From Symmachiella dynata (GTDB lineage: Bacteria; Planctomycetota; Planctomycetia; Planctomycetales; Planctomycetaceae), in the NCBI RefSeq assembly GCF_007747995.1, contig NZ_CP036276.1:502001-566000 (forward strand): a DNA stretch of 64,000 nucleotides, in the 5' to 3' direction. The stretch's first letter is position 1; each line of letters starts with the position of its first letter. The position numbers were made by a program, and so were the translations under genes. Positions 3,759-41,999 of the stretch are shown piece by piece. The notes below the pieces were generated by a model, which was given only the letters and a program-made list of their open reading frames with translations, had not been told where the DNA came from and ran no database searches.

Positions 3759-4663
3759 GTTCGCAACCACCCACTGTTGTCGAGATGTCGCCTTCGTCCG
3801 GATTGCCTCCCTGTCCGCTGTGTGGAGCCTCCGAGACGAAAGCGATCTACCAATTGACCGGTTATCGAGTTGCCCGTTGCACCTCGTGTCACTTCGACTT
3901 CAACGGAGATTTTCAAGGCGGCGGTGAAACCGGGCAGACCTTTGACCGTGACTATTACATGGAAGCGCACCGTGCCGCATTTGCGAATCATGCAAAAGAC
4001 TACTCCAAAGATCCCAGCCTCAAAGTATTTGAAAACCGACTAAAGCAAGTGGAGGCGCAAATTGGCGTTGGCCGTGTGTTGGACGTCGGACCCGGACTGG
4101 GGACATTTGTCAAGATGGCCTCGACGCGCGGCTGGGATGCCGAAGCAGTAGAAATCAGCGAATACGCTGCCAACCACATTCGGGAAACCCATGGTCTGCA
4201 GGTCTTTAATGGAGACCTGCAAAAATTCCCCGGGGAAGACGAATCGTTCGACTTGGTCACTTTTTGGGACTCGGTCGAGCATGTCGCCTATCCCAAGGAA
4301 AATTTAGAAACGGCATACCGGCTCATCAAACCGGGCGGCATGATCTTGTTGACGACGGATAACTTCGACTGCCTTGTGGCGGATATCGCGAGTTTGTTTT
4401 ACAAGGCGACGGCCGGTTGGTGCACCTATCCGTTGGAGCGGGTTTTTATTGATCGCAACTACGGGTTTTTCACCGATGAGACGTGCCGGGCTCTTGTGGA
4501 ACGCGTCGGATTTCACGATGTCGTGATCGACAAAATGGAATATCCGCTGGAAAAAATTAAACTGAGCGTGCTGGAACGCTTAGCGCTGGCTTCGATTTAT
4601 GGAATGGCAAAACTGACTGGACGACAGGCTCAGATCACCGTGATGGCGAAAAAACCACAATGA
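3755..4663 (+). CDS. Class I SAM-dependent methyltransferase with N-terminal zinc-ribbon-like motif
   Basis: About 302 residues. The N-terminus has CPLCG and CTSCHFDF, a four-Cys ribbon typical of sugar C-methyltransferase-like proteins in polysaccharide clusters. The SAM-binding motif VLDVGPGLGTF and the FDLVTFWDSVEHV motif follow. TTG 3755 is chosen: AGGA at 3743-3746 is 8 bases upstream and the TTG overlaps the TGA stop of the previous gene, implying translational coupling; ATG 3785 is the alternative. The ATGA at its end overlaps the next gene. It probably methylates a sugar or sugar nucleotide of the exopolysaccharide. Confidence 0.83.
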   Translation: MSSQPPTVVEMSPSSGLPPCPLCGASETKAIYQLTGYRVARCTSCHFDFNGDFQGGGETGQTFDRDYYMEAHRAAFANHAKDYSKDPSLKVFENRLKQVEAQIGVGRVLDVGPGLGTFVKMASTRGWDAEAVEISEYAANHIRETHGLQVFNGDLQKFPGEDESFDLVTFWDSVEHVAYPKENLETAYRLIKPGGMILLTTDNFDCLVADIASLFYKATAGWCTYPLERVFIDRNYGFFTDETCRALVERVGFHDVVIDKMEYPLEKIKLSVLERLALASIYGMAKLTGRQAQITVMAKKPQ

Positions 4664-6292: not shown

Positions 6293-7339
6293 ATGCCATT
6301 TGAGATCGTAGAGGAATCGTTAGACGTCGCCCGCGATGATGCCATCGCCGTATTGGACGCCACCCGGCAACATGCGGTCGATCGGTCGCGGTTTCAATGG
6401 TTGTATTGCGACAATCCCGACGGACCCGCCGTGCTCTGGGCCATTCGCAAAACAGAAACGGGCGAAATGGCAGGCTTTACCGTCGCCCTTCCGCGGCGGA
6501 TGCTTGTCGATGGCCAGTTGCGACATGCTTGGAACGGGGCCGATTTTTCGATTTTACCTCGATTTCGCACTTTGGGACTGGCTCTCAAGCTGCGCCGTGC
6601 AGCCAAGAACGGGGTTGATGACCAGCGCGTCGATTTTCTGTATGCCCATCCCAACGAAAAAATGGCCGTCATCCATGCAAAAGTCGGACATTCTCCGATC
6701 GGCGAGATGGTCCGCTACGCCAAAGTGCTCAGAACCGCACCGTACATTCAGCGCAAGGTGGGCAACAACGCACTGGCAACAGTCGGGGGAGCCATGCTCG
6801 ATCCACTGTTGCGAATTGCCGGAGCGGAGACCCGCCATCGTGCAAAATGCAACACATCGCTGATGGACATCACAAATATTGATGAACGTTTTGACAAACT
6901 CTTCGCCAATGCCGCCCCTGCGCGGGGCGTGATCGGGGTCCGCGATTCAAGATATTTGCGTTGGCGATACGCCGAAAACCCGCTGGAAACAGCACAAGTC
7001 ATTATCGCTGAGGAAAACGGACAACTTTGCGGTTATCTGGTGATGACCACCCAGCAGGATATGGGAGTCATCAAGGATCTGTTTCCGATGGATCGCCCCG
7101 AAGTGGCGCGCGACTTGCTCGCTACTGCTATCCGACAGGGACGCAAACAGGGGCTGAACAGCCTGTCGTTTACCATGTTGTGTTCAAACCCCTTGATCTC
7201 TTCGCTGGTGGAGTTCGGATTTCGTCAAAGAAGCGGATTGTCACAAATGTACGGATATGCACCGGAATCCAGCGAGCTCCGGGCGACTCTGTTGGACGTC
7301 AATGCTTGGTGGTTGACGGTCGGGGATCGCGACGTTTAA
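6293..7339 (+). CDS. GNAT family N-acetyltransferase, probably two GNAT units
   Basis: At 348 residues it is about twice one GNAT domain. The first half (to ~165) has ALWAIRKTETGEMAGFTV and a following strand-helix pattern like an acyl-CoA fold. The second half has YLRWRYAENPL and IIAEENGQLCGYLVM, another GNAT-like block. ATG 6293 is chosen because the upstream in-frame extension back to 6179 overlaps the previous gene and has no domain match. It ends the first run of the exopolysaccharide cluster; a 396-bp gap follows. It may acylate a sugar or a peptide precursor; the substrate is unknown. Confidence 0.8.
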   Translation: MPFEIVEESLDVARDDAIAVLDATRQHAVDRSRFQWLYCDNPDGPAVLWAIRKTETGEMAGFTVALPRRMLVDGQLRHAWNGADFSILPRFRTLGLALKLRRAAKNGVDDQRVDFLYAHPNEKMAVIHAKVGHSPIGEMVRYAKVLRTAPYIQRKVGNNALATVGGAMLDPLLRIAGAETRHRAKCNTSLMDITNIDERFDKLFANAAPARGVIGVRDSRYLRWRYAENPLETAQVIIAEENGQLCGYLVMTTQQDMGVIKDLFPMDRPEVARDLLATAIRQGRKQGLNSLSFTMLCSNPLISSLVEFGFRQRSGLSQMYGYAPESSELRATLLDVNAWWLTVGDRDV

Positions 7340-7735: not shown

Positions 7736-7972
7736 ATGAAAAACGAAATTCGAACGTACTTGACGAACAATCGCGCCTCGTCCGAGGCAGGCCAATTCGA
7801 TGATCAAGAGTCACTGCTTGAGGCAGGAGTCATTGACTCGATGGCAATGGTCGACTTGATTGCCCACTTGGAAAAAACCTATTCGATCACCATCGACGAA
7901 GATGACATGGTTCCCGAAAACTTCGATTCGGTCGAAGCGATCGTGACTTATGTCACCGGCAAACAGGGGTAG
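7736..7972 (+). CDS. Acyl carrier protein
   Basis: A 78-residue acidic protein with the phosphopantetheine attachment motif GVIDSMAMVDLI, the acceptor being Ser35, followed by HLEKTYSITIDEDDMVPENF, the standard helix II-III pattern. This is not the fatty-acid ACP, whose motif is DSLD; it is a specialised carrier. It is followed by a LarA-like protein and an AMP-forming ligase. In XrtA/PEP-CTERM clusters a dedicated ACP and an acyl-AMP ligase often occur together, so an acyl or hydroxyacyl group is probably activated and carried for modification of the polysaccharide. Confidence 0.9.
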   Translation: MKNEIRTYLTNNRASSEAGQFDDQESLLEAGVIDSMAMVDLIAHLEKTYSITIDEDDMVPENFDSVEAIVTYVTGKQG

Positions 7973-8019
7973 CAGCACTGGTTCAGTGATTCGCAGTTAA
8001 TTAACCGTACGGGATGACA

Positions 8020-9276
8020 ATGTCTGAGATTAGCGTCGAACTTCCTTGGGGGGCTTGGTACCGCGACGAATTACATCGTCTGCAGTTGCCCGGTCATTGG
8101 GAAGTCGACGTCTTGGCACCTGCCGGAGGACAGGCATGCACGCCGCAGGACATTCAAGCAGCGATCACCGCACCGATTGATAGCCCACCGCTGGCGGAGT
8201 TGGCCGCTGGAAAAACGTCGGCGTGTATCGTGATCGATGACATGTCCCGACCCACCCGTACAGCCATGATCCTGCCGCCGTTGTTGAATCAATTGCGGCA
8301 GGCCAGCATTGCCGATTCGGCCGTCTCCATTGTGATGGCCACCGGTTCGCATGGAAACGTTCCCGCTGAGGACATCGCCAAAAAAGTCGGTCCGGAAATC
8401 GCGGCAACCTATCGCGTCGAATGCCACGATTGCCGCGGCGACTTGGCTCCAACCGGCATTGCCTACGGCGACCGTGAACTGCGCGTCAACCGTACATTCT
8501 ACGAAGCGGAATTGAAGTTGGGCATTAGCTCGATCCTGCCGCACTCCTTTGCTGGATTCAGCGGCGGCGCAAAACTCGTTTTGCCGGGATTGACCGACGT
8601 CCAGGCGACCGCCCGCAGTCACAAATTTGTGCAACTCGGTCTGCGAGGCGGAGCAGATCCTGATCGCAACAAATTCCGCAGCGAAGCTGAACAACTGGCT
8701 CGGACTCTCGGGATGGAATTTATTGTCTGCGTCGTGAGCAATCAACAGCGCGATCCGAGTCATGTATTCGCCGGCGACATCGTGGCTGCGCATCGCGCCG
8801 CCTGCCATGCCGCCCCGGGGGTTTTCTCTACGGAATTGCGACGCGACTACGATTGCCTGATTCTCAATGCTTATCCGAAAGACAATGACCTCATACAAGC
8901 CGAAAACGTTTTCATTGCCTTAAAGACCGCGAAGTCGCCGACCGTTGGCGATGACGGCGTGATTGTTGTGACGACCGCTGCGTCAGAAGGGGTGGGACAG
9001 CATGGACTGTTCGAGCCGGGCGGCCTGAGCTATCGTCCTCCGCAGCCTAAGCGTTTTTTGAAAAACCGCGAGCTATGGCTGTATGCTCCGACGGTCACCA
9101 CGCAAAATGCGCGCGCTCTCTATTGGGAGGGCTATCCCGTTTTTCAACGGCCTGAGGAATTGACGGCCGCCTTGAATCAGCGGTTTCCGCAGCCAACCCG
9201 CTGCGGCGTATTCCCTTGTGCTCCCATGCAACAGGTCAGCGACGCGCGCGGCGCGGTGATGGGGGTGGCGGTATGA
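8020..9276 (+). CDS. LarA-like (lactate racemase N-terminal domain, DUF2088) protein
   Basis: About 418 residues. VIDDMSRPTRT corresponds to the LarA DxTRP block, ATGSHG to the His of the substrate site, and LPHSFAGFSGGAKLVLPG to the His/Lys region, where Lys tethers the nickel pincer cofactor in lactate racemase; RSHKF is a possible further His. So the metal and cofactor ligands look retained. ATG 8020 has GGG six bases upstream; ATG 8014 is two codons earlier. It ends in an ATGA overlap with the ligase. No larB, larC or larE is seen, so any cofactor must be made elsewhere. It may racemise or epimerise a hydroxyacid destined for the carrier protein; this is inference. Confidence 0.85.
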   Translation: MSEISVELPWGAWYRDELHRLQLPGHWEVDVLAPAGGQACTPQDIQAAITAPIDSPPLAELAAGKTSACIVIDDMSRPTRTAMILPPLLNQLRQASIADSAVSIVMATGSHGNVPAEDIAKKVGPEIAATYRVECHDCRGDLAPTGIAYGDRELRVNRTFYEAELKLGISSILPHSFAGFSGGAKLVLPGLTDVQATARSHKFVQLGLRGGADPDRNKFRSEAEQLARTLGMEFIVCVVSNQQRDPSHVFAGDIVAAHRAACHAAPGVFSTELRRDYDCLILNAYPKDNDLIQAENVFIALKTAKSPTVGDDGVIVVTTAASEGVGQHGLFEPGGLSYRPPQPKRFLKNRELWLYAPTVTTQNARALYWEGYPVFQRPEELTAALNQRFPQPTRCGVFPCAPMQQVSDARGAVMGVAV

Positions 9277-10823
9277 AAACACTCTTCGCACAATTTCAAG
9301 AGCGCGTAACAGCAGCGCCGAATCGCGTAGCGGTCCATCACCGTAATTGCGATACGACCTATTCGGACTTGGCCCGCAGTTCCGCTGCGGTCGCCGCTTG
9401 GTTACAAGCACAAGGGCTACAACATGGCGATCGCGTCGCGGTGCTGATCCCCAATAGTGCCGCCTTCGTTGCCGCCTACTTGGGAATCCAAGCTGCCGGA
9501 GGCGTTGTTGTTGCTCTCAATCCGGATACGACTCCGCACGAACTCACCAACACGCTGGGCGATTGTGCACCGTTTGGCGTTGTCACCGGAGCAGCCGCGG
9601 AAGCACCCTTGTCGCAGGTTGCCGAAAAATTGCCGAGCGTCCGCGTCGTGGTTCGCGTGGATGAAAAATCGGCTCCGGTTTTTCCACAGTCCTGGAAAAT
9701 CGCCGCCTGGGCCGATGTCGCACAACACCCCGTCTCGCAATCGCCAGCGCTGCCACAGTTGGAAGACATTGCACAAATCATTTACACATCCGGCACGACC
9801 GGCAAGCCCAAGGGGGTCACGCTCAGCCACGGCAACGTCGCCGCCAATTGCGCTTCGATCGTCGAGTACCTGAGGCTCTCGGCCGACGATAGTGTGTTGG
9901 TCAGTTTGCCCTTTTTCTATTCGTACGGAAACTCGTTGCTCTTCACACATTTGGCCGTCGGAGGCCGATTGGTGTTGGCATCCGACACGGTCTTTTGGAA
10001 CCGCGTGCTAGATATGATGCAACGCGAACGGACAACCGGATTTTCCGGAGTCCCTTCGACCTATGCGATGTTGCTGCACAAATCCGATTTTCGCACGCGG
10101 GAGTTTCCTGAGCTAAGATATCTCACATGTGCCGGCGGAGGACTTGCGCCGGCGGTCGTCGATCGGCTGCGTGACGTCGTGCCGAACGTCGAATTGTTCT
10201 TGATGTACGGACAAACCGAAGCAACCGCGCGGCTTTCGACTTTGATGCCCAATGAAGTCGACACAAAACTGGGATCAATTGGCCGGGGAATTCCCGGAGT
10301 CGAATTGTCAGTGCTCGACGATACGAATACTCCAGTTCAACCGGGCGAAGTGGGAGAGATTGTAGCGCGCGGCGAAAACCTCATGCAGGGGTACTGGAAC
10401 GACCGCACGGGAACCGAACGCGTCATTCGCGAAGAAGGTTTGCGGACAGGCGATCTCGCCAGGGTGGATGAGGACGGATATCTGTTCATCGTGGGCCGCA
10501 AATCGGACATTATCAAAAGCGGCGCCTATCGAATTAATCCCAAGGAATTGGAAGAAGTCATATTAAAATTGCCGGGCGTTGCTGAAGTCGCCGTTGTGGG
10601 TCTGCCGGACGAAATCCAAGGCGAATCCATCGTGGCCTTTGTCGTGCATTCGGCCAATGAAGTGGAAACAACCGCGGAGGTGATTTTTGAACATTGTCGA
10701 AAACATCTGCCGCGTTACAAAATGATCCGCGACGTGCGATTTGTGGACAGCCTCCCCAAGACGCCTAGCGGAAAAATTAGAAAAAATGACCTAAGAAATG
10801 TGGACGACTCGGTGCCTGCTTAA
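9273..10823 (+). CDS. AMP-dependent acyl ligase (class I adenylate-forming enzyme)
   Basis: 516 residues with every hallmark of the family: YTSGTTGKPKGVTLSHGN near residue 170 (P-loop), YGQTEATAR near 315, TGDLARVDEDGYLFIVGR with the hinge after it, and the C-terminal catalytic Lys in PKTPSGKIRKNDLR near 500. It starts in a four-base overlap with the LarA-like gene, fixing ATG 9273. It most likely adenylates a carboxylic acid and loads it on CoA or on the carrier protein encoded at 7736. Substrate identity cannot be read from the sequence. Confidence 0.92.
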   Translation: MKTLFAQFQERVTAAPNRVAVHHRNCDTTYSDLARSSAAVAAWLQAQGLQHGDRVAVLIPNSAAFVAAYLGIQAAGGVVVALNPDTTPHELTNTLGDCAPFGVVTGAAAEAPLSQVAEKLPSVRVVVRVDEKSAPVFPQSWKIAAWADVAQHPVSQSPALPQLEDIAQIIYTSGTTGKPKGVTLSHGNVAANCASIVEYLRLSADDSVLVSLPFFYSYGNSLLFTHLAVGGRLVLASDTVFWNRVLDMMQRERTTGFSGVPSTYAMLLHKSDFRTREFPELRYLTCAGGGLAPAVVDRLRDVVPNVELFLMYGQTEATARLSTLMPNEVDTKLGSIGRGIPGVELSVLDDTNTPVQPGEVGEIVARGENLMQGYWNDRTGTERVIREEGLRTGDLARVDEDGYLFIVGRKSDIIKSGAYRINPKELEEVILKLPGVAEVAVVGLPDEIQGESIVAFVVHSANEVETTAEVIFEHCRKHLPRYKMIRDVRFVDSLPKTPSGKIRKNDLRNVDDSVPA

Positions 10824-11166
10824 GTCGGTAGGACCTGTTTCAGAATCTAGTTGCAGAATGTTCTGAAAACGTGCAGATTCAGTGTCAGCGGGACACGATG
10901 GAGATCTTTTGAAACGACTTAATTGGAAAATTATCGAGAAATTCACAGAATTGCCACAATGACATTTACATAGGTATGGCAACCTAAGAAATTAGAGGCT
11001 TATCGCCGCTCAGGCAGCTAAGCCGCAAAATCGGGCCATGTAACGGAAAACAAGTTTTTTTGGGCAGTCCTAGACATGGTGCCGTTGGTTAAGAATCGCC
11101 ACCGGGACGATAAAAGACCGCGCACCATCGATAGACAACCGTGGAGATCCACCAGGAGTCGGCCCC
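10824..11166. other. Intergenic region upstream of the membrane-anchored epimerase
   Basis: 343 bases with lower GC than the flanking genes and no convincing coding frame. An AGGAG at 11152-11156 is the likely ribosome binding site of the next gene. No clear terminator or promoter could be fixed. Confidence 0.4.
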
Positions 11167-12732
11167 GTGTTTAACATGAAAAAAATGAAAATCACTAAAG
11201 CGCAGACCGTCCGTTTAGTCGCTGACGCGGCTCTGATCAATGTTGCTTTTATCGCTGCCTTGGCGCTGCGATTCTTCCTGTTTGTCGCCATGCGACATCA
11301 AACTCAGGTCGACTACGAAAATGAGTTCTGGTCGCTGGTCACCGCCTATTGGCAAAACGCGATTCCACTGACGTTGGTCTCGCTGGTGGTCTATTCACTC
11401 AGCGGATTTTACACTTACAGCCGCGTCTACCAGGGGCGCTACAAAGCTCTGGTCGTGGCGCAAGCCGTCGCCCACAGCTATTTGATTTATGGCGTCGCGG
11501 TCTATTTTCTGGCCGACCGTCTCGACATGGTCGAAATCCCGCGGATCGCATTCGTCATGGCCTGGCTGATGAACACCGGCCTTACGCTGGCCTCGCGAAC
11601 ATGGACCTCGGTTTGGGAAAAAGTTGTCCGCCCCGAACGCGACGCCAAGCTGCGAGATGTCGATTCCAAAGTCCGCAGTGTCCTCGTCATTGGTGGAGCC
11701 GGTTACATCGGCTCAGCCTTGTTGCCGAAACTGTTGGAGAAAGGCTACCGCGTTCGCGTGCTGGACATGTTTCTGTTCGGCCAAGAGCCAATCGCCAAAA
11801 TTGCTAATCACAAAAATCTAGAGCTGGTTAAGGGAGACTTCCGTCACGTCGAAAAAGTGGTGGAAGCCATGCGTGGAATGGATGCCGTCGTGCATCTGGG
11901 AGCCATCGTGGGTGATCCGGCTTGCAATCTCGATGAACGTGTGACCGTCGCCGTCAACCTGTCGGCCACGCAAATGATCGCGCAAGTTGCCAAAGCCTCA
12001 GGAATTCGCCGCTTCATCTTCGCCAGCACCTGTTCGGTCTACGGAGCCTGTGACGAACTTCTCGACGAACGCTCAGAAGTCGAACCGATTTCGTTGTACG
12101 GACACACGAAACTTGCCGCAGAAAATGGCCTCAAGAACATGGCGGACGCGAATTTCGCACCCACCTTGCTCCGGTTCGCCACGATCTACGGTCTCTCGGG
12201 ACGCACACGGTTTGACTTGGTGATCAACGTCCTGTCTGCCAAGGCCAAAGTCGACGGGCAAATTACTGTCCACGGTGGTGACCAATGGCGGCCGTTCGTA
12301 CATGTTGACGACGCTGCATTGGGCGTATTCACAGCCTTGGAAGCCCCGCTGTCGGTCGTCGGAAATCAAACCTTCAATGTCGGCTCGGATGAGCAAAATC
12401 ATACGATTGGCGAAATCGGCCAAATGGTCAAAGACCAAGTCTTTACCGCCGAATTGATTTGCGAGGAATCGAACACAGACAACCGCAATTACCGAGTCAG
12501 CTTCCAAAAGATCCGCAACCTGCTGGGCTTTACTCCGGCATGGACGATCGAATCCGGGATCAGCCAGGTTCTCGAAGCTGTCGCCAGCGGCGAAGTCCAA
12601 GACTACCGCGACGACAAATACAGCAACGTCAAATTCCTCAGCGGCTCCGGCGTGATCGAATTGGTCCGCGCCGACGACGACTGGTCGAAGCTGCTCAACG
12701 AGACAAGCGACACGTCGCAAGTCCCTGTTTAG
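11167..12732 (+). CDS. Membrane-anchored NAD-dependent sugar epimerase/dehydratase (FlaA1/CapD-like membrane part joined to a GalE-like domain)
   Basis: Residues ~10-155 contain four hydrophobic helices like the membrane region of CapD/FlaA1-type proteins. From ~175 on a Rossmann domain begins with VLVIGGAGYIGSALL. The catalytic pair is SLYGHTK (YxxxK) with the upstream STCSVYG serine motif. The catalytic part resembles extended GalE/RfbB-like SDRs rather than the usual CapD 4,6-dehydratase, whose motif is GAGGSIGSE. GTG 11167 follows AGGAG by 10 bases; ATG 11176 is possible. It probably changes a nucleotide or lipid-linked sugar at the membrane face. The fusion is the unusual point. Confidence 0.85.
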   Translation: MFNMKKMKITKAQTVRLVADAALINVAFIAALALRFFLFVAMRHQTQVDYENEFWSLVTAYWQNAIPLTLVSLVVYSLSGFYTYSRVYQGRYKALVVAQAVAHSYLIYGVAVYFLADRLDMVEIPRIAFVMAWLMNTGLTLASRTWTSVWEKVVRPERDAKLRDVDSKVRSVLVIGGAGYIGSALLPKLLEKGYRVRVLDMFLFGQEPIAKIANHKNLELVKGDFRHVEKVVEAMRGMDAVVHLGAIVGDPACNLDERVTVAVNLSATQMIAQVAKASGIRRFIFASTCSVYGACDELLDERSEVEPISLYGHTKLAAENGLKNMADANFAPTLLRFATIYGLSGRTRFDLVINVLSAKAKVDGQITVHGGDQWRPFVHVDDAALGVFTALEAPLSVVGNQTFNVGSDEQNHTIGEIGQMVKDQVFTAELICEESNTDNRNYRVSFQKIRNLLGFTPAWTIESGISQVLEAVASGEVQDYRDDKYSNVKFLSGSGVIELVRADDDWSKLLNETSDTSQVPV

Positions 12733-13036: not shown

Positions 13037-14215
13037 TTGACTAAAACGACGACACTGGCCCAGCATAAAATCCCCTTCTTCTTGCCGACCATCGGTGAAG
13101 ACGAAATCAACGAGGTCGTCGACACGCTCCGTTCGGGATGGTTGACCACCGGGAAAAAAGCAAAGCAGTTCGAGCAAGAATTCGCCGACCGCGTGGGGGC
13201 AAAACATGCCATCGCCGTGAACTCCTGCACAGCTGCGCTGCACTTGGCGCTCGAAGCACTCGGCATTGGTCCCGGCGACGAAGTCATCGTCCCAACACTG
13301 ACGTTCGCCTCGACGGCTGAAGTGGTTGTGCATCTGGGGGCAACACCGGTCTTGGCCGATTGCCGACCCGATACGCTCAACATCGATCCCGCATCGATCG
13401 CCGCAAAAATTACGTCGAAAACCAAAGCGATCATTCCGGTGCATTACGCCGGCCAACCGTGCGATATGGACGCGATTCACGCGGTCGCCCAAGAGCACAA
13501 ATTGCCCGTCGTGGAAGATGCGGCTCACGCAATCCCGGCGCGGTATGGCGAGCGGGCCGTCGGAACGATCAGCGACATCACCTGCTTTTCATTCTACGCG
13601 AACAAAACCATCACCACCGGCGAAGGAGGGATGGTCACAACCGATTCGGACGACCTGGCTGCCCGGATGCGAATCATGTCCCTGCACGGCATCAGCAAGG
13701 ACGCCTGGAAACGCTTTAGCGCCGAAGGCTCGTGGTATTACGAAATCACCGCTGCCGGATTCAAACACAACATGACCGATGTGGCTGCGTCGATCGGTTT
13801 GCATCAACTCCGGCGGTGCGACGAATTTTGGGAAGGCCGCACCCGCTGCGCCGAGTTTTACAACCGCGCATTCGCCGACGTTCCCGAAGTTCAAACGCTC
13901 ACGGTCGATCCTCAAAATCAGACCTCTTGGCATTTGTATGTGATCCAATTGCACCTGGACAAACTCTCCATCGATCGCGGCGAATTTATCAACCGCTTGA
14001 ACGCTGCCGGTGTGGGGACGAGCGTGCATTACATGCCGCTACACATGCATCCCTATTATCATGAGACGCACGGTTACCAAGTCGATGATCTGCCGGTGGC
14101 CAAGTCTGCTTTCGAACGAATGCTTTCGCTGCCGATTTATCCGCGACTCAGCGACGACGAGCTAAAATACGTCGCCGATACAGTACAGGCGATCGTGGCG
14201 GAGACGCGTGCATGA
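13037..14215 (+). CDS. DegT/DnrJ/EryC1/StrS family PLP aminotransferase
   Basis: 392 residues. The N-terminus IPFFLPTIGEDEINEV with SGWLTTGKK is the classic start of the sugar aminotransferase family. VVEDAAHAIPARY holds the PLP-contacting Asp and SFYANKTITTGEGG holds the Schiff-base Lys near residue 193. TTG 13037 is used: AGAGGA lies 8 bases upstream and the preceding sequence is not coding-like. It probably transfers an amino group to a keto-sugar nucleotide; the epimerase just upstream and the sugar transferase overlapping its end (ATGATGA) point to an amino sugar as the first sugar of the repeat unit. Confidence 0.93.
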   Translation: MTKTTTLAQHKIPFFLPTIGEDEINEVVDTLRSGWLTTGKKAKQFEQEFADRVGAKHAIAVNSCTAALHLALEALGIGPGDEVIVPTLTFASTAEVVVHLGATPVLADCRPDTLNIDPASIAAKITSKTKAIIPVHYAGQPCDMDAIHAVAQEHKLPVVEDAAHAIPARYGERAVGTISDITCFSFYANKTITTGEGGMVTTDSDDLAARMRIMSLHGISKDAWKRFSAEGSWYYEITAAGFKHNMTDVAASIGLHQLRRCDEFWEGRTRCAEFYNRAFADVPEVQTLTVDPQNQTSWHLYVIQLHLDKLSIDRGEFINRLNAAGVGTSVHYMPLHMHPYYHETHGYQVDDLPVAKSAFERMLSLPIYPRLSDDELKYVADTVQAIVAETRA

Positions 14216-14802
14216 TGAAACGCATGTTTGATTTATTGGTTTCGTTTTGCGGACTGTTGTTGTTGTGGCCGGTGCTTTTGGTTTCAGCGGTGTTAGTCAA
14301 ATTGACCTCGCCCGGACCCGCCTTGTACCGGCAACAACGCATGGGGCTCAATTTCCAACCCTTCGACATCCTCAAGTTCCGCACGATGGTTGTCGACGCT
14401 CACAAATTGGGGGGACAGATCACCGCCGGCCGCGACCCGCGCATTACTTCGGTTGGTCACTTTTTACGCAAAACAAAAATCGACGAGCTGCCGCAGCTAA
14501 TCAACGTCTTTAAAGGCGAAATGAGCTTCGTCGGACCGCGCCCAGAGGTCCCCCGTTATGTGGAAATGTTTCGAGACGACTATGCGGAACTGTTGAAAGT
14601 CCGTCCCGGAATTACCGATATCGCTTCGCTCAAATACCGGCACGAGTCCGAACTGCTCGGGGAATCCGACAACCCGGAAACCACATACACCCAAGTCATC
14701 CTTCCCGACAAAATCGCCCTCGCCAAAGAATACATCCGCCGCTCGTCGATCCTATTTGATCTTCAATTGATCTTTAAAACCGTATTGCGAATGGCGGAGT
14801 AA
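14212..14802 (+). CDS. Polyprenyl-phosphate sugar-1-phosphate transferase (bacterial sugar transferase)
   Basis: 196 residues: one N-terminal membrane helix ([20 protein letters not shown]) followed by the compact catalytic domain with KFRTMVVDA, the conserved [19 protein letters not shown] and GPRPEVP motifs, and RPGITDIAS. This is the small PglC-like monotopic form without the multi-helix region of WbaP. It attaches the first sugar phosphate to undecaprenyl phosphate, starting each repeat unit. It overlaps the aminotransferase by four bases, so the sugar it uses is probably the amino sugar made by that enzyme. Confidence 0.94.
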
Positions 14803-15119: not shown

Positions 15120-16691
15120 ATGAGCAAGAATTCATCTCTCGCGGGCAGTGAGTCCATCAGTCATGAGGTGCAGAGCGCTGGGGGGAGGGCACAACTATAT
15201 GGGTCAGTTATTCACTGGCGCTATGGGGTCTTGTCACTCTTGCTCATCGGGTTGATGCTGTCCGCCACCTTGGAACGCGATTGGGGCGGGGATTTTTGGG
15301 AGCATAGCGCTGTCGTGCGCGAATTGGCGGAAAATCCATGGTCGCCTCAACATCCGCAATTTGCCCTCGATGCACCGCACGCATTTTACTCGCCGTATTC
15401 CATGATCGTCGCCTTGGCATCGCGAGGTCTCGGTCTTTCACCCATTCGGACACTTGCGATTGCGGGAATTTGCAATCTGGCCCTGGTTTTGTTTGGGTTA
15501 CGATGCTTCATACACACTCTGCCACTTAGCAAGGGCACCTCGTTTTGGACGCTGTTGTTCACACTGATTCTATGGGGCGCATTTCCTTGGGACTGGAGTG
15601 GATTTTTACATCTCCGGATATTGGACAATGTGCTGCCCTACCCATCGACGTTTGCCACCGGGCTTGCGTTTGTGTGTTATGCCGCGTTTTATCGTTATCG
15701 GCAAACCGGTCGCTACTGGTTGTTGGCCGTTTTGCTCATCGCTTTTCCGGTCATCCTGATCTGTCACCCACCCACAGCGGCGGCCGCGTTCCTCGTGTTG
15801 TGTGGCCTCAGTCTTGCAGAAGGAATGCAATCGGTCCGTCAGTCTCTAATGCTATTGGCCGGTTTGGGTGTCTGGTCGGGCATCGTGGTTTCGCTGTGGC
15901 CCTATTTCCCTTTTTGGGGGATTGTCACATCTAGCGATGCAACCAACATCAAGGAATTTCATGCAACAGCTCTGTTGTTCTATCAAGACGTGCTTTCCCG
16001 AATATTTCCAGCGCTGTTGGGATTGCCGTTCCTTGCGCTACGCTTCTGTTCAAATCGACGCGATCCGTTGCCACTGATTTTTGTGGTGCTTGTTGCCGCC
16101 TATGCCGTGGGCCCGATGTTCGGTCTTTGGCAATTCGGTCGTATGATGCCCAGCCTGGTGCTTGTATTGCACATCACCCTCGCTGACCGGGTCGCATATA
16201 TCGAACAGCGCGCTCTTTCCGGTGCGGTGAAATTGCGGAATCTCATGGCAATGTATATTGTCGTCGGTGCGAGCCTATTGATGTGCGCCGACCTGTGGAA
16301 CGTCTCGTCTCGGTTCCACCATTGGATTCCGGAACACGATCCCAACGCGGAGTATGAATTTCTAGGCGACTATGTTGGTCAATACGATGTCGTCCTCAGT
16401 GACCTAAAGAGCAGTTGGATTGCCCCGACGTTCGCTGGGAGGGTCGTTGCTGTGCCCCATCCTCAGGCGTTCGTCGATTCCCACGAAATTCGTCGCCAGG
16501 ATCTTGACCGATTTTTCAGGGGCGATACGCCACAAACTGAACGAGAAACAATTCTCAAAAAGTATTCCGGGCGCTTCATATTAATCAATCGCCGAAACAA
16601 TGATGTGAGCATCGAATTCATGGAGCAAGTCCGCCAACTTGGCGACGCTGTCTATGAACGCGGCGATATCACTCTCATAGCCCTCAGATAA
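15120..16691 (+). CDS. Polytopic membrane protein, GT-C-like, unknown function
   Basis: 523 residues with about ten membrane helices and a soluble C-terminal ~120 residues ending NRRNNDVSIEFMEQVRQ. The first periplasmic loop has ERDWGGDFWEHSAVVRELAENPW, with acidic residues where GT-C glycosyltransferases keep the catalytic Asp. It looks like a distant relative of the protein at 4660. It overlaps the following GT4 gene by one base (TAATG). A role in polysaccharide repeat assembly, for example as a sugar transferase or polymerase-like protein, is inferred from context only. Confidence 0.8.
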   Translation: MSKNSSLAGSESISHEVQSAGGRAQLYGSVIHWRYGVLSLLLIGLMLSATLERDWGGDFWEHSAVVRELAENPWSPQHPQFALDAPHAFYSPYSMIVALASRGLGLSPIRTLAIAGICNLALVLFGLRCFIHTLPLSKGTSFWTLLFTLILWGAFPWDWSGFLHLRILDNVLPYPSTFATGLAFVCYAAFYRYRQTGRYWLLAVLLIAFPVILICHPPTAAAAFLVLCGLSLAEGMQSVRQSLMLLAGLGVWSGIVVSLWPYFPFWGIVTSSDATNIKEFHATALLFYQDVLSRIFPALLGLPFLALRFCSNRRDPLPLIFVVLVAAYAVGPMFGLWQFGRMMPSLVLVLHITLADRVAYIEQRALSGAVKLRNLMAMYIVVGASLLMCADLWNVSSRFHHWIPEHDPNAEYEFLGDYVGQYDVVLSDLKSSWIAPTFAGRVVAVPHPQAFVDSHEIRRQDLDRFFRGDTPQTERETILKKYSGRFILINRRNNDVSIEFMEQVRQLGDAVYERGDITLIALR

Positions 16692-17926
16692 TGCATCAAC
16701 CTATGAAAATTCTCTTCTTACAAAAGCGACCGCTGTTCCCCGCCGATATGGGGGGCAAGATCCGGACTCTCAACGTTCTACGTTACCTAGCCGCCTGGCA
16801 CGAGGTCACCTACTTGTGCAACGTGCAAGCGGGTGAGGAACCGGGGGTGCAGGAGATGCGCGAGATTGGCCTGCGGGTCGAGACGGTTCCCTGGGTCGAG
16901 ACGCCGCGGAGTACGCTCAAATTCTATGGAGAACTTGCGGCCAACCTCTTCTCCCCGAATCCGTACAACGTCGATAAGGATTACGATCCCCAGTTGCGCC
17001 GGCGGGCTGAGGAGTTGCTGGCTGCTGAACAGTACGATTTGGTCGTCTGTGATTTTGTGCAGATGGCCCGTAACGCCATCGGCCTCCCGGCGGCGGCTAA
17101 GGTTCTGTTTGAACACAACGTCGAAGCGCAGATCTTCGAACGGCATGCGCAGCAAGACGAGGGTTGGCTGCGCAGAAAATACATGGGGCTGCAATGGCGC
17201 AAGATGCGACAGTTTGAAGGAGAAGCGGGGCAGCAATTCGACGCTGTCGTCGCCGTCAGCCACCAAGACAAAGAGACTTATATCCGCGATTACAACTGGG
17301 ACCATGTGCAGGTGATCGATACGGCGGTCGATCTCGATTTCTTTCAACCCGACCCGGCTGCCGAACAGCCGCACCGGATTGTGTTTGTGGGGTCAATGGA
17401 TTGGCTTCCCAATCAGGATGGTGTCCGGCATTTCGTGGAGCAAGTTTGGCCGTCGATTCGCCAACGATGTCCCGAAGCCGAATTCCGCGTCGTCGGTCGC
17501 AATCCCACGCCGATGGTTGAGCAATTGGGCCGCGCACCCGGCGTTGAGATCATGGGCACCGTTCCCGACATTCGCCCCTTCTTAGCCGAAGCCGCGTTGG
17601 CCGTCGTCCCGCTGTTAGTCGGCGGTGGGACGCGATTGAAGATATTTGAAGCGATGGCCATGCAAAAAGCAGTCGTTAGCACGCCCTTGGGGGCCGAAGG
17701 ATTAGAAGTTACCTCCGGCGACAATGTGCAACTCGCCAACGCCGGCCCCGATTTCGCCAACGCCGTCGTCGATTTGTTGCAAGATGCGGACAAACGCCAC
17801 AAGATGGCTGCTGCGGCGCGTCAACTGGTCGAGGAAAACTATTCCGCCGAAACAGTCGCCCGACAATTCGAAGCGATTTGCATCCAAGCCGTCGATTCTC
17901 AAAAAACTGCCGCCGGCACGGTCTGA
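16691..17926 (+). CDS. Family 4 glycosyltransferase (PEP-CTERM/XrtA cluster type)
   Basis: 411 residues. The N-terminus KILFLQKRPLFPADMGGKIRT is typical of the GT-B sugar transferases of exosortase-associated clusters. The C-terminal half has FVGSMDWLPNQDGVRHF, then VVPLLVGGGTRLKIFEAMAM, the GT4 donor-binding block with its E-x7-E-like pattern. No signal peptide; a cytoplasmic or membrane-peripheral enzyme. ATG 16691 overlaps the previous stop (TAATG); ATG 16703 is also possible. It ends overlapping the VanZ-like gene. It should add one sugar of the repeat unit. Confidence 0.9.
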   Translation: MHQPMKILFLQKRPLFPADMGGKIRTLNVLRYLAAWHEVTYLCNVQAGEEPGVQEMREIGLRVETVPWVETPRSTLKFYGELAANLFSPNPYNVDKDYDPQLRRRAEELLAAEQYDLVVCDFVQMARNAIGLPAAAKVLFEHNVEAQIFERHAQQDEGWLRRKYMGLQWRKMRQFEGEAGQQFDAVVAVSHQDKETYIRDYNWDHVQVIDTAVDLDFFQPDPAAEQPHRIVFVGSMDWLPNQDGVRHFVEQVWPSIRQRCPEAEFRVVGRNPTPMVEQLGRAPGVEIMGTVPDIRPFLAEAALAVVPLLVGGGTRLKIFEAMAMQKAVVSTPLGAEGLEVTSGDNVQLANAGPDFANAVVDLLQDADKRHKMAAAARQLVEENYSAETVARQFEAICIQAVDSQKTAAGTV

Positions 17927-29478: not shown

Positions 29479-29834
29479 TGATCACCTCGTTGTGTACATG
29501 TGTACATTATTGTCTTGCTGGCGCTGTATTGCAACGGAATTCCTACATCATTTCAAAAAAATCAGCCATGCCAAAACCGTATTGGTGCGGACTGGGGTGG
29601 GGATAGTCTCAAGCAAGTTACGACTTCGACGCATGTCAAAGACGCCGACAGTGTCGGTTGCGCCGAATCCCCCTCTTGCGCCGGCGGCGGGTGCTGGCGG
29701 GTATGCGAAGTGCGGATAAATTGGGCAGGAAGGCTAAAGGGGGTAGCCTGTGCGTGTCGAAGAAAAGAGATGAACGGGCAACGTCTGGTTGTCGGACGTA
29801 CGAAATACTGACACTTTTTGGGGATAACGGAGAG
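29479..29834. other. Divergent intergenic region, with a TGTACA dyad near its left end
   Basis: 356 bases between the DUF5131 gene (reverse) and the YTV-repeat gene (forward), so both promoters should be here. The TGTACA dyad is listed separately. GGAGAG before 29835 is the ribosome binding site for the YTV gene. No other signal was recognised. Confidence 0.4.
29493..29506. promoter_or_regulatory. Possible operator: two TGTACA half sites
   Basis: TGTACA-TG-TGTACA at 29493-29506, two palindromic hexamers 8 bp apart, lies about 15-28 bp upstream of the DUF5131 start codon on the reverse strand, a place where a repressor would block transcription or the leader. No regulator gene is adjacent. 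The repeat is seen; operator function is inferred. Confidence 0.4.
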
Positions 29835-31214
29835 ATGAAACACGCATTTTGGATCTCCGTCGCCGCCGGGCTATTCTTGGTTGCATGCGACGGAACTACA
29901 GCCGAAGCAGGATATTGTGGAGCAGCGAACTACTCATGCTGCCCAACGTCCTGTTGTGCCCCGAGCGGGGACTATTGTGCCGCGAAATCGAACTGCTGCA
30001 CCTGCTACAAGCAAGTGCGGGAAGTCAAATGGGAAAAAGAACAGTACACATGCTGCAAAACAGTGTATGACACTGTCTGCGAAAAAGTGCCGGTGCAATG
30101 CACTCGCAATGTGTACGAAACACGCTATCGCGATTGCTGCTACACCGTCTGCAAGCCGGTCTACAAGACTTGCTACCGCGACGTTTGTTGCACGGTTCGC
30201 CGGCCGGTTTACAAGACCTGCTACCGCGATGTCTGCTGCAAAGTTTGCAAGCCGGTCTACAACACCTGCTATCGCGACGTGTGCTACACGGTCTGCAAAC
30301 CGGTCTACAAAACCTGCTACCGCGACTGCTGCTACACGGTCTGCAAGCCGGTTTATAAGACCTGTTACCGTGACGTCTGCTGCACGACCTACAAACGCGT
30401 CTGCGAAACCAAATATCGCGACTGCTGCTACACGGTCTGCAAACCAGTCACGGAAACCAAGACGATCGACGTTTGCTGTGGCGAATGGAAAACCGTTACG
30501 GAACACTGCCCCGGTCCTGTGGTTTGCAAATGTGTTTGCGATCCCGGTACCTGGGAAACCAACTGCTGTGGTTGCTGCATCTACAAGCCGGGTTGCTGCC
30601 GCATGGTCAAACAACAGTGCCCCGGCACGACGATTTGCCGCAAAGTCTGGTGCCCCAAGACGGTCAAAAAGACTGTGTGCTGCACCCGTTATGTCACGGA
30701 AACCAAGCATCGCCGCGTGCCTTACACCTGTGTGAAATGCATCCCGTGCACGACAACCAAGAAGGTTCCGTACACGACTTGCAGCTACGTCCGCGAATGC
30801 AAAACGCGTCGCGTGCCGTACACGACCTGCACGATGGTTCGCCAGTGCTGCCACAAGAAGGTGCCGTACCGTACTTGCCGCATGGTCACCGAATGCGTCA
30901 CCCGCAAGGTGCCGTACACGACCTGCACCTACAAGTGCGAAACCATCACCAAGAAGGTGCCGTACACAACTTGTCAACACGTGACGCAAACCTGCACCCG
31001 CAAGGTTCCGTACTGTGTCTGCAAGCAAGTTTGTGAGACGAAGTACGTCACACGTCGCAAATGCGTGCCGCGTCAGGTTCAGGTCACCTGCACCCGCTGC
31101 GTGCCCCGCGTCACCTGCAAAATGGTGCCGGTCCAGGTCTGCTGCCCCGCCGACCCGGGATGCTGTGCCCCATCCGATTGTGCGGCTCCGCAAACCTGTT
31201 GCGAGTCCAAGTAA
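29835..31214 (+). CDS. Secreted cysteine-rich YTV-repeat protein (planctomycete cell-surface type)
   Basis: 459 residues. A signal sequence (HAFWISVAAGLFLVAC) precedes a Cys-rich mature chain. Two repeat blocks have a 16-residue (48-bp) period: residues ~95-210 with units such as YTVCKPVYKTCYRDVC, and ~305-420 with units such as KKVPYTTCSYVRECKT. Between them lies a Cys/Gly part (CNCGC-like). Such YTV proteins are known from planctomycete cell walls and may cross-link through disulphides. ATG 29835 is chosen because of GGAGAG just upstream and the signal peptide; earlier in-frame starts add non-signal sequence. A perfect terminator follows. Confidence 0.87.
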   Translation: MKHAFWISVAAGLFLVACDGTTAEAGYCGAANYSCCPTSCCAPSGDYCAAKSNCCTCYKQVREVKWEKEQYTCCKTVYDTVCEKVPVQCTRNVYETRYRDCCYTVCKPVYKTCYRDVCCTVRRPVYKTCYRDVCCKVCKPVYNTCYRDVCYTVCKPVYKTCYRDCCYTVCKPVYKTCYRDVCCTTYKRVCETKYRDCCYTVCKPVTETKTIDVCCGEWKTVTEHCPGPVVCKCVCDPGTWETNCCGCCIYKPGCCRMVKQQCPGTTICRKVWCPKTVKKTVCCTRYVTETKHRRVPYTCVKCIPCTTTKKVPYTTCSYVRECKTRRVPYTTCTMVRQCCHKKVPYRTCRMVTECVTRKVPYTTCTYKCETITKKVPYTTCQHVTQTCTRKVPYCVCKQVCETKYVTRRKCVPRQVQVTCTRCVPRVTCKMVPVQVCCPADPGCCAPSDCAAPQTCCESK

Positions 31215-41198: not shown

Positions 41199-41999
41199 CT
41201 AACGATAGGACCGACCGCGCGGCGTTTGCCAAACTGTTGCCGCCGATGGGGCGGGAACGAATTTTTTGCTGGCGGTGGTCGTTGAGCTGCGATAACCGTC
41301 GTAGCGATCGTTGGATGCTGCTCGACGCGGAATGCTTGTGGAACGTGACACGTTTGTGGAGCGACCCGATTCATCGAATTCAGGATCCGGCACCGGCGCC
41401 AATGATGAACTCTCGTAGGAGCGACGCGGAATCGGATTCGTAGCCAACGGTGTGGAGATCGGTGCGGTGACGATGGGTGTCGATAGCGGCGGCAACAGGG
41501 CCGTGTTGTATGTTGTATAGACCGGCGGGATATAGCTGGTCGTGTAAGACGTTTGGTAGCTGATGCGTTGTTCGGGAACCAACTGTGTCGTCACCCGCGG
41601 AATTCGCCGCGTGACTTGATAGGGCACGGTCCGTTGCGAGAGTTGGGTTTGATACCCTTGCTTGGCAACGGTCTTGGTGGTGAGCTTGGGCACCCAGACC
41701 TGTTGGTAGCTCCCTTCATCCACGGTCACATTTTCGTACGTCGTCACCGGCACGCTTTGGTAGAAAGATTCTTGCCGGTATTCGGTTTGTGCCACGTCTT
41801 GATAGGAGATTTGTTGCTGTTGGCGGTATTGCGTCGAGACCACCGGCTGCACATAGGCCTGTGTCACCGGTTGCGGAGCTGGCGCCGCGCAGGTCGTACA
41901 ACAATCAAAACAAGGCAGTCCCCATTGTGCACGAGCCACGTTTCCGGAGCCTGCACTGATTGCCAAAAAGATTACGCCGCACGAGATGACTCTCAACAT
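41199..41999 (-). CDS. Secreted Tyr/Gln/Thr-rich protein, unknown function
   Basis: 266 residues. A signal sequence (ISCGVIFLAISAGSGNVARA) precedes a short Cys cluster (CFDCCTTC) and a long low-complexity part rich in Tyr, Gln, Thr and Val, with repeating V-P-Y/T-x-V words (SFYQSVPVTTYENVTV, SQRTVPYQVTRRIPRV). The rhythm recalls YTV-type proteins but with few Cys. The end is Ser/Arg/Thr-rich. It is a probable cell-surface protein. No family is recognised with certainty. It runs towards the tandem 188-bp repeats. Confidence 0.78.
   Translation of the reverse strand: MLRVISCGVIFLAISAGSGNVARAQWGLPCFDCCTTCAAPAPQPVTQAYVQPVVSTQYRQQQQISYQDVAQTEYRQESFYQSVPVTTYENVTVDEGSYQQVWVPKLTTKTVAKQGYQTQLSQRTVPYQVTRRIPRVTTQLVPEQRISYQTSYTTSYIPPVYTTYNTALLPPLSTPIVTAPISTPLATNPIPRRSYESSSLAPVPDPEFDESGRSTNVSRSTSIPRRAASNDRYDGYRSSTTTASKKFVPAPSAATVWQTPRGRSYR

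Follow-up and report, generated by a model that had tools for sequence, protein, structure and literature searches.

In the Dlt system, the ligase DltA and the carrier protein DltC load a small chiral acid for decoration of the cell surface. The cassette described here, found in the planctomycete Symmachiella dynata, presumably has a hydroxyacid isomerase and an acyltransferase of the GNAT family where Dlt has DltB and DltD. It lies in a window of 64,000 nucleotides (the whole stretch of DNA analyzed, positions 502,001 to 566,000, or 0.502 to 0.566 Mb, of the 7.77-Mb single-contig genome, NZ_CP036276.1). Its acyl carrier protein (ACP) matches DltC weakly (32 bits, against a cut-off of 68), and there is no close sequence relation to the Dlt system. 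By analogy, the nearest functional precedent appears to be that of Vibrio cholerae O1, where RfbL (WbeL) and RfbK are the dedicated ligase and carrier of a 2-hydroxy acid, 2,4-dihydroxybutanoic acid, for the 3-deoxy-L-glycero-tetronyl group (PMC12208996; this and the other papers are cited from partial texts). Like the window cassette, RfbK/RfbL sits inside a surface polysaccharide cluster. The likeness lies in how the two systems are described, and the partial text of PMC12208996 mentions no LarA-type isomerase. LarA homologues can racemize 2,4-dihydroxybutanoic acid (PMC11770544).

The known substrates of LarA all bear a free carboxylic acid, and in the LarA of I. pallida the carboxylate of D-lactate touches Arg73, Gln295, Lys298, His107, and His173, while its 2-hydroxyl group touches His107 and Tyr294 (PMC11623692). 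Lys298 is common to LarA, Mar2, and GntE2, although other LarA groups without it have been noted (PMC7583248). The window encodes a LarA-like protein that retains the fold and the nickel-pincer nucleotide (NPN) site of this superfamily and has lost the equivalents of Lys298 and Tyr294. Its gene belongs to a real and conserved cassette with genes for a tandem GNAT, an ACP, and a ligase, and this cassette is seemingly undescribed, as no account of it was found in the literature searched, which left subscription papers mostly outside. The four genes are as follows.

6293 to 7339, plus strand: tandem-GNAT acyltransferase (Pfam Acetyltransf_1, 20.8 bits; cut-off, 20.7)
7736 to 7972, plus strand: ACP of 78 amino acids (PF00550 PP-binding, 32.2 bits; cut-off, 20.8)
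8014 to 9276, plus strand: LarA-like protein of 420 amino acids (PF09861 Lar_N, 141 bits; cut-off, 23.3)
9273 to 10823, plus strand: AMP-forming acyl ligase of the ANL family (PF00501, 306 bits; cut-off, 29.9; PF13193, 84 bits; cut-off, 24.5)

A preliminary description of this DNA had reported the last three genes as a tight row. They do adjoin on the plus strand, with 41 bp between the ACP and LarA-like genes and an ATGA at 9273 to 9276, in which the start codon of the ligase (ATG, 9273) shares bases with the stop codon of the LarA-like gene. The real unit, however, has four genes, the GNAT gene having been missed. The gap between the GNAT and ACP genes is 396 bp in the window and 395 bp in a 97% relative (genome G066), whereas the two genes overlap or lie at most about 125 bp apart in the other loci. 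The tandem GNAT heads the cassette in related loci and would probably be the enzyme that transfers the loaded acyl group.

We infer a four-gene acylation module, a reading taken tentatively and placed just short of an even chance. The AMP-forming ligase would activate a small acid, for which a 2-hydroxy acid is the likeliest candidate, and attach it to the phosphopantetheine arm of the ACP that serves the cassette. The LarA-like protein would bear an NPN whose synthesis falls to LarB, LarC, and LarE from other parts of the genome and, using proton-coupled hydride transfer, would set the configuration at C2; its substrate would most probably be the ACP-bound hydroxyacyl thioester and not the free acid. 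The tandem GNAT would then pass the acyl group on to an amino sugar in an exosortase-associated exopolysaccharide, with the amine coming from a DegT aminotransferase.

Conservation of the cassette

The cassette was followed through 25 loci, comprising the window, its 97% relative (L041), and 23 loci from one contig scan with a six-row profile of LarA-like proteins. The scan took contigs containing [IV][LI]NAYPKD or [VI]x[LV]PWGAWY, and these motifs are thus partly selected for. L069 and L070 are near-copies, L067 and L068 are short contigs or have cut genes, and L071 to L073 have no ACP. The alignments retained 16 of 18 GNATs (A2), 19 of 25 LarA-like proteins (A3), and 19 of 20 ACPs (A4).

Searching the open reading frames with the window proteins located an ACP at 20 loci, a GNAT at 18, and a ligase at 15. 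GNAT, ACP, and LarA are contiguous in 15 of the 25 (window, L041, L052 to L056, L058, L059, L061 to L064, L069, and L070). Of the 18 loci with a GNAT, 17 have the ACP directly after it, and the ACP adjoins LarA in 16 of 25, with one gene between them in two more (L065 and L066); L060 has ACP and LarA without a GNAT. The ligase directly follows LarA in ten loci (as a fragment only in L060), and five more loci have it in another position (in pieces in L074). The order of ACP, LarA, and ligase is contiguous, with a whole ligase, in seven (window, L041, L053, L054, L056, L058, and L061).

The pairwise distances of the partner proteins are correlated across the loci, most strongly for the pairs that include the GNAT (LarA-GNAT, r of 0.92 over 18 loci; GNAT-ligase, 0.91 over 11; ACP-GNAT, 0.89 over 17), followed by LarA-ACP (0.81 over 20), ACP-ligase (0.73 over 14), and LarA-ligase (0.68 over 14); each has a P value of 1/5001 by permutation, and the values include the effect of shared ancestry. 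GNAT, ACP, and LarA travel together best because their mutual correlations (0.81 to 0.92) exceed those of the ligase with LarA (0.68) and with the ACP (0.73). The core of the cassette is GNAT-ACP-LarA, and the ligase, which the preliminary description had included in its three-gene operon, is its loosest partner. Taxa given in the titles of the metagenome-assembled genomes (MAGs) among the sources include Planctomycetaceae, Nitrospirota, Desulfobacterales, Deltaproteobacteria, Calditrichota, Acidobacteria, and Gemmatimonadetes. Chance adjacency was ruled out by a gene order that is kept over these phylum labels. In L052, labeled Candidatus Nealsonbacteria and belonging to a 9.1-Mb genome, the GNAT, ACP, and LarA are 54, 60, and 57% identical to those of the window, and the MAG label is probably wrong. 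L057 has a B12-binding radical SAM protein (8569 to 9966) directly 5' of the LarA-like gene and an ACP about 7 kb away; no GNAT was found at this locus.

Within 101 genomes of the family, LarA-like matches occur in 35, and close orthologues (at least 303 bits, 47 to 100% identity) in just six; the remaining matches are ordinary LarA homologues aligned over approximately residues 7 to 345. A search of 392 genomes of the phylum (six-row profile, E value of 1e-50) returned only the window's own copy and four ordinary LarA homologues, with up to four candidates scored per genome, so that members may be hidden. The cassette looks sparse in Planctomycetota.

Close GNATs (at least 346 bits) occur in eight of the 101 family genomes, namely the six with the cassette LarA and two others, G028 and G040, neither of which has a LarA-like match at an E value of 1e-20. 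Both have the sugar cluster of the window in syntenic form: in G028 (L097) it runs GNAT, ACP, ligase, epimerase, aminotransferase, and sugar transferase, and in G040 (L098) it runs GNAT, epimerase, aminotransferase, and sugar transferase, without ACP or ligase. The GNAT, ACP, and ligase of G028 are 49, 60, and 51% identical to those of the window, compared with 44, 57, and 53% for G015, which has LarA. Because gene content forms this series from the window through G028 to G040, LarA would be an added tailoring step on top of loading and transfer, with the GNAT as the constant part and the ACP and ligase feeding it. G028 and G040 also provide natural pairs, with and without LarA, to set beside the window cluster. 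More distant GNATs likewise sit with an ACP and a ligase, in gene groups at 4540 to 10868 of L101 (G083) and 3595 to 9981 of L102 (G031), and asparagine-synthase-like and NAD-synthase-like enzymes are found there instead of LarA. These two loci are the same loading-and-transfer module with other tailoring enzymes.

Fold and cofactor site of the LarA-like protein

The AlphaFold2 model of the LarA-like protein (mean pLDDT of 91.9) matches LarA (8ezh) from end to end, with a Z score of 40.9 and a root mean square deviation (RMSD) of 2.8 over 387 residues. With its Lar_N domain and two-domain LarA fold, the protein belongs to the LarA superfamily. The NPN-site residues D72, R75, and K184 are kept in all 24 rows that cover them, and H200 is kept in 25 of 25. 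Of the two catalytic histidines, H108 is present in 24 of 24 rows and H174 in 23 of 24, the exception being L072, which has arginine. Q295 is kept in all 25 proteins of the cassette group. The nickel-site motifs of the preliminary description are thus present in the window protein, and the lysine on which it had made nickel-dependent chemistry depend, the K184 equivalent, is retained in all 24 relatives covering that site. A degenerate LarA lacking the cofactor site was ruled out, as the NPN residues are kept. The fold, the NPN residues, and both histidines are shared with the LarA of L. plantarum, the LarA of I. pallida, Mar2, and GntE2.

As in LarA systems, the window genome contains larB, larC, and larE. 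None is near the cassette, as had been noted earlier; they sit at 5.79, 5.37, and 3.51 Mb, respectively, and match their models at 268.7 bits (cut-off, 175), 472.4 bits (22.1), and 314 bits (150), so that their absence from the genome is ruled out. The genome encodes five PF09861 proteins. Each of the six high-quality planctomycete genomes that carry the cassette has all three genes. Among 24 locus genomes, larB exceeds its cut-off in 16, larC in 17, and larE in 15; all three are found in 14 genomes, one or two in 4, and none in 6. In G472, G473, G474, and G483, the three genes are present and the cassette protein is the sole PF09861 protein. Moreover, in G472 and G474, both Nitrospirota MAGs, larC-larB-larE adjoin one another approximately 26 kb from the cassette (C41:186178-188334, with the cassette Lar_N match from C41:214163, and C9:70781-72940, with the match from C9:98622).

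Altered substrate pocket

The two substrate anchors that characterized LarA enzymes possess are lost from the cassette proteins. At position 298, the 25 members have N (15), G (3), T (3), S, A, or L (1 each), and K (1), and at position 294 tyrosine is replaced in all 25 by L, I, V, F, or C; the window protein has K298 changed to N and Y294 changed to I. The same searches supplied control LarA homologues (31 of 32 chosen loci, L006 having no phmmer match), and of these 31, 30 have K298 and 28 have Y294. This contrast holds against controls that come mostly from one family, and not against every LarA group. The window protein lacks the carboxylate lysine of the characterized 2-hydroxyacid racemases, and the only member that has it, L073, has no ACP, GNAT, or ligase nearby. 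Residues specific to the group are W12, W15, K124, K204, R222, R261, K289, and H330 (21 of 25 cassette rows, leaving out L062, L068, L072, and L073, and 29 of 31 controls, leaving out L004 and L005). K289 is found in 21 of 21 cassette rows, whereas 28 of 29 controls have leucine. The N-terminal PWGAWY motif aligns to gaps in all 29 controls, and YPKD stands in place of YPLD. K289, W12, and W15 are partly selected by the scan motifs, whereas positions 294 and 298 lie outside those patterns.

No curated LarAH activity group was reached among the NCBIfam equivalogs; the best was LarAH6 malate racemase (202.9 bits; cut-off, 500), and all LarA equivalog models matched were far under their cut-offs. 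Its fold and cofactor site place the protein in the LarA superfamily, but it falls outside every characterized activity group, and, unlike characterized LarA enzymes, it is tied to an ACP, a GNAT, and a ligase. This suggests a distinct and so far unnamed LarA subfamily. Judged from the alignments, the nickel half of the site is intact and the acid-gripping half is rebuilt, though R75 and Q295 stay.

In L072, labeled Gemmatimonadetes, the LarA-like gene (9995 to 11173) has a sugar-isomerase-like protein and a short-chain dehydrogenase as neighbors, and its product, with arginine at position 174 and no ACP nearby, possibly carries out a different NPN reaction.

Substrate and reaction

The loss of the carboxylate lysine fits an ACP thioester, because a thioester offers no carboxylate to grip. 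That this subfamily uses the nickel-pincer cofactor on an ACP-tethered hydroxyacyl thioester without a free carboxylate can be proposed with rather less than even confidence. Such a substrate would also call for a way in for the acidic ACP and its arm, and the basic residues specific to the clade (K124, K204, R222, R261, and K289) could serve an acidic ACP. If so, this would be the first NPN enzyme known, in the literature searched, to have its substrate bound to a carrier and also the first with a link to the acylation of polysaccharides. Nickel-pincer chemistry would widen to thioesters, with the carboxylate lysine lost and a steady ACP partner gained, and one of the five PF09861 proteins of the window genome would gain a role.

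Several observations count against the acylation module and its thioester substrate. In the pocket, the carboxylate-contacting residues R75 and Q295 are kept, and K289 could be a replacement for K298 that binds a free carboxylate. The Y294A variant of I. pallida LarA lost its tethered NPN (PMC11623692); proteins that naturally lack Tyr294 may therefore bind the cofactor less well or not at all. Regarding gene content, the ligase is not in the available DNA at 10 of 25 loci; several of these are short contigs, but L065 and L066, with approximately 10 kb of flanking DNA in both directions, are among them. An ACP is absent from L071, L072, and L073, and L072 has lost H174. The cassette group as a single clade is weakly supported (61/33, in a tree without the truncated L068). 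Regarding the cofactor, larC of G472 and G474 matches only the first 229 of 375 positions. Furthermore, none of the three lar genes is over the cut-off in G475, G479, G480, G481, G484, and G487 (6 of 24, all MAGs of unstated completeness), and five of these six (not G475) encode no PF09861 protein besides the LarA-like one. The cassette is present in four of the five (G479, G480, G481, and G484), whereas in G487 (L073) the LarA-like gene stands without the others. G484 is a near-copy of G483, where all three lar genes occur, and larC is patchy among the relatives of G480 (8 of 20, with G480 counted).

A rival reading is a conventional racemase, which would interconvert the D and L forms of a free 2-hydroxyacid and in this way supply a stereospecific ligase with its enantiomer, with loading and transfer as later steps. 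Characterized LarA enzymes work on free 2-hydroxy acids (PMC7583248, PMC11770544); R75, Q295, and both histidines are kept; K289 might assume the role of K298; and G028 does without LarA, as expected if LarA merely supplies one enantiomer. However, the anchors for the D-lactate carboxylate and 2-hydroxyl are replaced (K298 in 24 of the 25 proteins, Y294 in all of them), the matched NCBIfam LarA equivalogs are far below cut-off, and the close tie to the ACP, which adjoins LarA in 16 of 25 loci and lies one gene away in 2 more, would not be expected. We consider racemization of a free acid rather unlikely. The preliminary description had placed racemization of a free hydroxyacid before its activation, and this order sits badly with the loss of Lys298 and Tyr294. 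What stands of that proposal is an NPN-type hydroxyacid isomerase tied to the activation and loading of an acid with which a polysaccharide would be decorated. Lactate, or a lactyl group, was dropped as the favored substrate, since nothing points to lactate.

It has also been proposed that LarA homologues without K298 or H174 may run another hydride-mediated reaction (PMC7583248). By extension, the cassette protein could carry out a one-directional inversion, an oxidation, or an internal redox reaction on an acyl group or a sugar in place of racemization, as the loss of K298 (24 of 25) and Y294 (25 of 25) and the absence of H174 from L072 would allow. Both catalytic histidines are nevertheless kept in 23 of 24 rows, and in the established mechanism these alternate as acid and base for inversion (PMC12611868), making such a reaction distinctly unlikely. 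An ACP-bound hydroxyacyl thioester is retained as the preferred substrate.

Partner proteins

The phosphopantetheine serine of the ACP (Ser35) is invariant in 19 of 19 aligned ACPs. Among NCBIfam models, the ACP weakly resembles AmcB and DltC, all far under the cut-off. The ligase has all of the motifs YTSGTTGKPKG, YGQTE, TGDL, GRKSDIIK, and KTPSGK. TIGR03098, the exosortase A-associated acyl-CoA ligase, is its second-best NCBIfam model, yet at 386.4 bits the protein falls short of the cut-off of 592.35. The earlier statement that a carrier protein and a ligase are known partners in exosortase clusters finds its backing here only in the name of this model; a term search of the partial text of the paper on exosortase and exopolysaccharide (PMC1569441) found no mention of ligase, carrier protein, acyl carrier, AMP-binding, or FemAB.

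The AlphaFold2 model of the GNAT (mean pLDDT of 93.0) contains two GNAT folds in one chain, which makes it a tandem GNAT of the NMT/Eis-like type, and these are also its nearest solved folds. It aligns with NMT (1iyl) with a Z score of 23.6 and an RMSD of 4.8 over 313 residues and with Eis2 (9mva) with a Z score of 23.2 and an RMSD of 3.3 over 299 residues. The likeness to NMT and Eis extends over the whole length (Z scores of approximately 22 to 24 and RMSDs of 3.0 to 5.2 over 281 to 318 residues) and includes a conserved C-terminal tail, whereas sequence identity is just 7 to 14%. A D-R-D motif lies near the C terminus in 18 of 18 GNATs; in NMT, the C-terminal carboxylate acts as a base (PMC4964394). 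Unlike that of NMT and Eis, the donor of the window GNAT would probably be a small acyl-ACP.

Polysaccharide context

Downstream of the cassette, the window encodes the following proteins.

11167 to 12732, plus strand: NAD-dependent sugar epimerase/dehydratase (PF01370, 156 bits)
13037 to 14215, plus strand: DegT/PseC-type sugar aminotransferase (PF01041, 467 bits; TIGR03588, 397 bits, below the cut-off of 423.5)
14212 to 14802, plus strand: initiating polyprenyl-phosphate sugar transferase (PF02397, 206 bits)
16691 to 17926: glycosyltransferase related to TIGR03087 (252 bits, below the cut-off of 317)

The DegT aminotransferase is a candidate source of the acceptor amine. The sugar epimerase is a conserved downstream neighbor in 5 of the 25 LarA loci and also in G028 and G040. 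The BLAST cluster that holds an XrtA FemAB protein occurs in 8 of 25 loci, and the member scanned (L054) matches TIGR03019 at 278 bits, over the cut-off. Polysaccharide genes also surround the cassettes of L070 (Calditrichia), with chain-length, flippase, O-antigen (Wzy-type) ligase, and glycosyltransferase genes, and of L056 (Nitrospirota), with an O-antigen (Wzy-type) ligase, a deacetylase, and a UDP-sugar dehydrogenase. The term "exosortase cluster," as previously applied to this region, holds loosely: an exosortase (TIGR04178, 74 bits; cut-off, 23) is encoded approximately 30 kb upstream, outside the window.

Genes for N-acyl amino acid synthases often lie beside exosortase genes, and the route proposed for stieleriacine runs via acyl-ACP (PMC7293339). 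Together with a GNAT fold like that of NMT and Eis, which acylate peptide and aminoglycoside amines, this raises the possibility that the module makes an N-acyl amino acid or a lipid-like small molecule instead of decorating a polysaccharide. The cassette of the window, however, sits with a sugar epimerase, a DegT aminotransferase, and an initiating sugar transferase, those of L070 and L056 lie among polysaccharide genes, and the GNAT of G040 stays in its sugar cluster after ACP, ligase, and LarA are gone. A small-molecule product is very improbable in light of these neighborhoods. The preferred reading, with LarA as part of polysaccharide acylation, leads to a specific prediction about the stereochemistry of as yet unknown acyl groups that exosortase-type exopolysaccharides carry, and the natural pairs with and without LarA are available to probe it.

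Elsewhere in the window are a protein of short Cys/Tyr-rich repeats, with motifs such as CYRDVC and VPYTTC (29658 to 31214), and a repetitive Tyr/Gln-rich protein (41199 to 41999).

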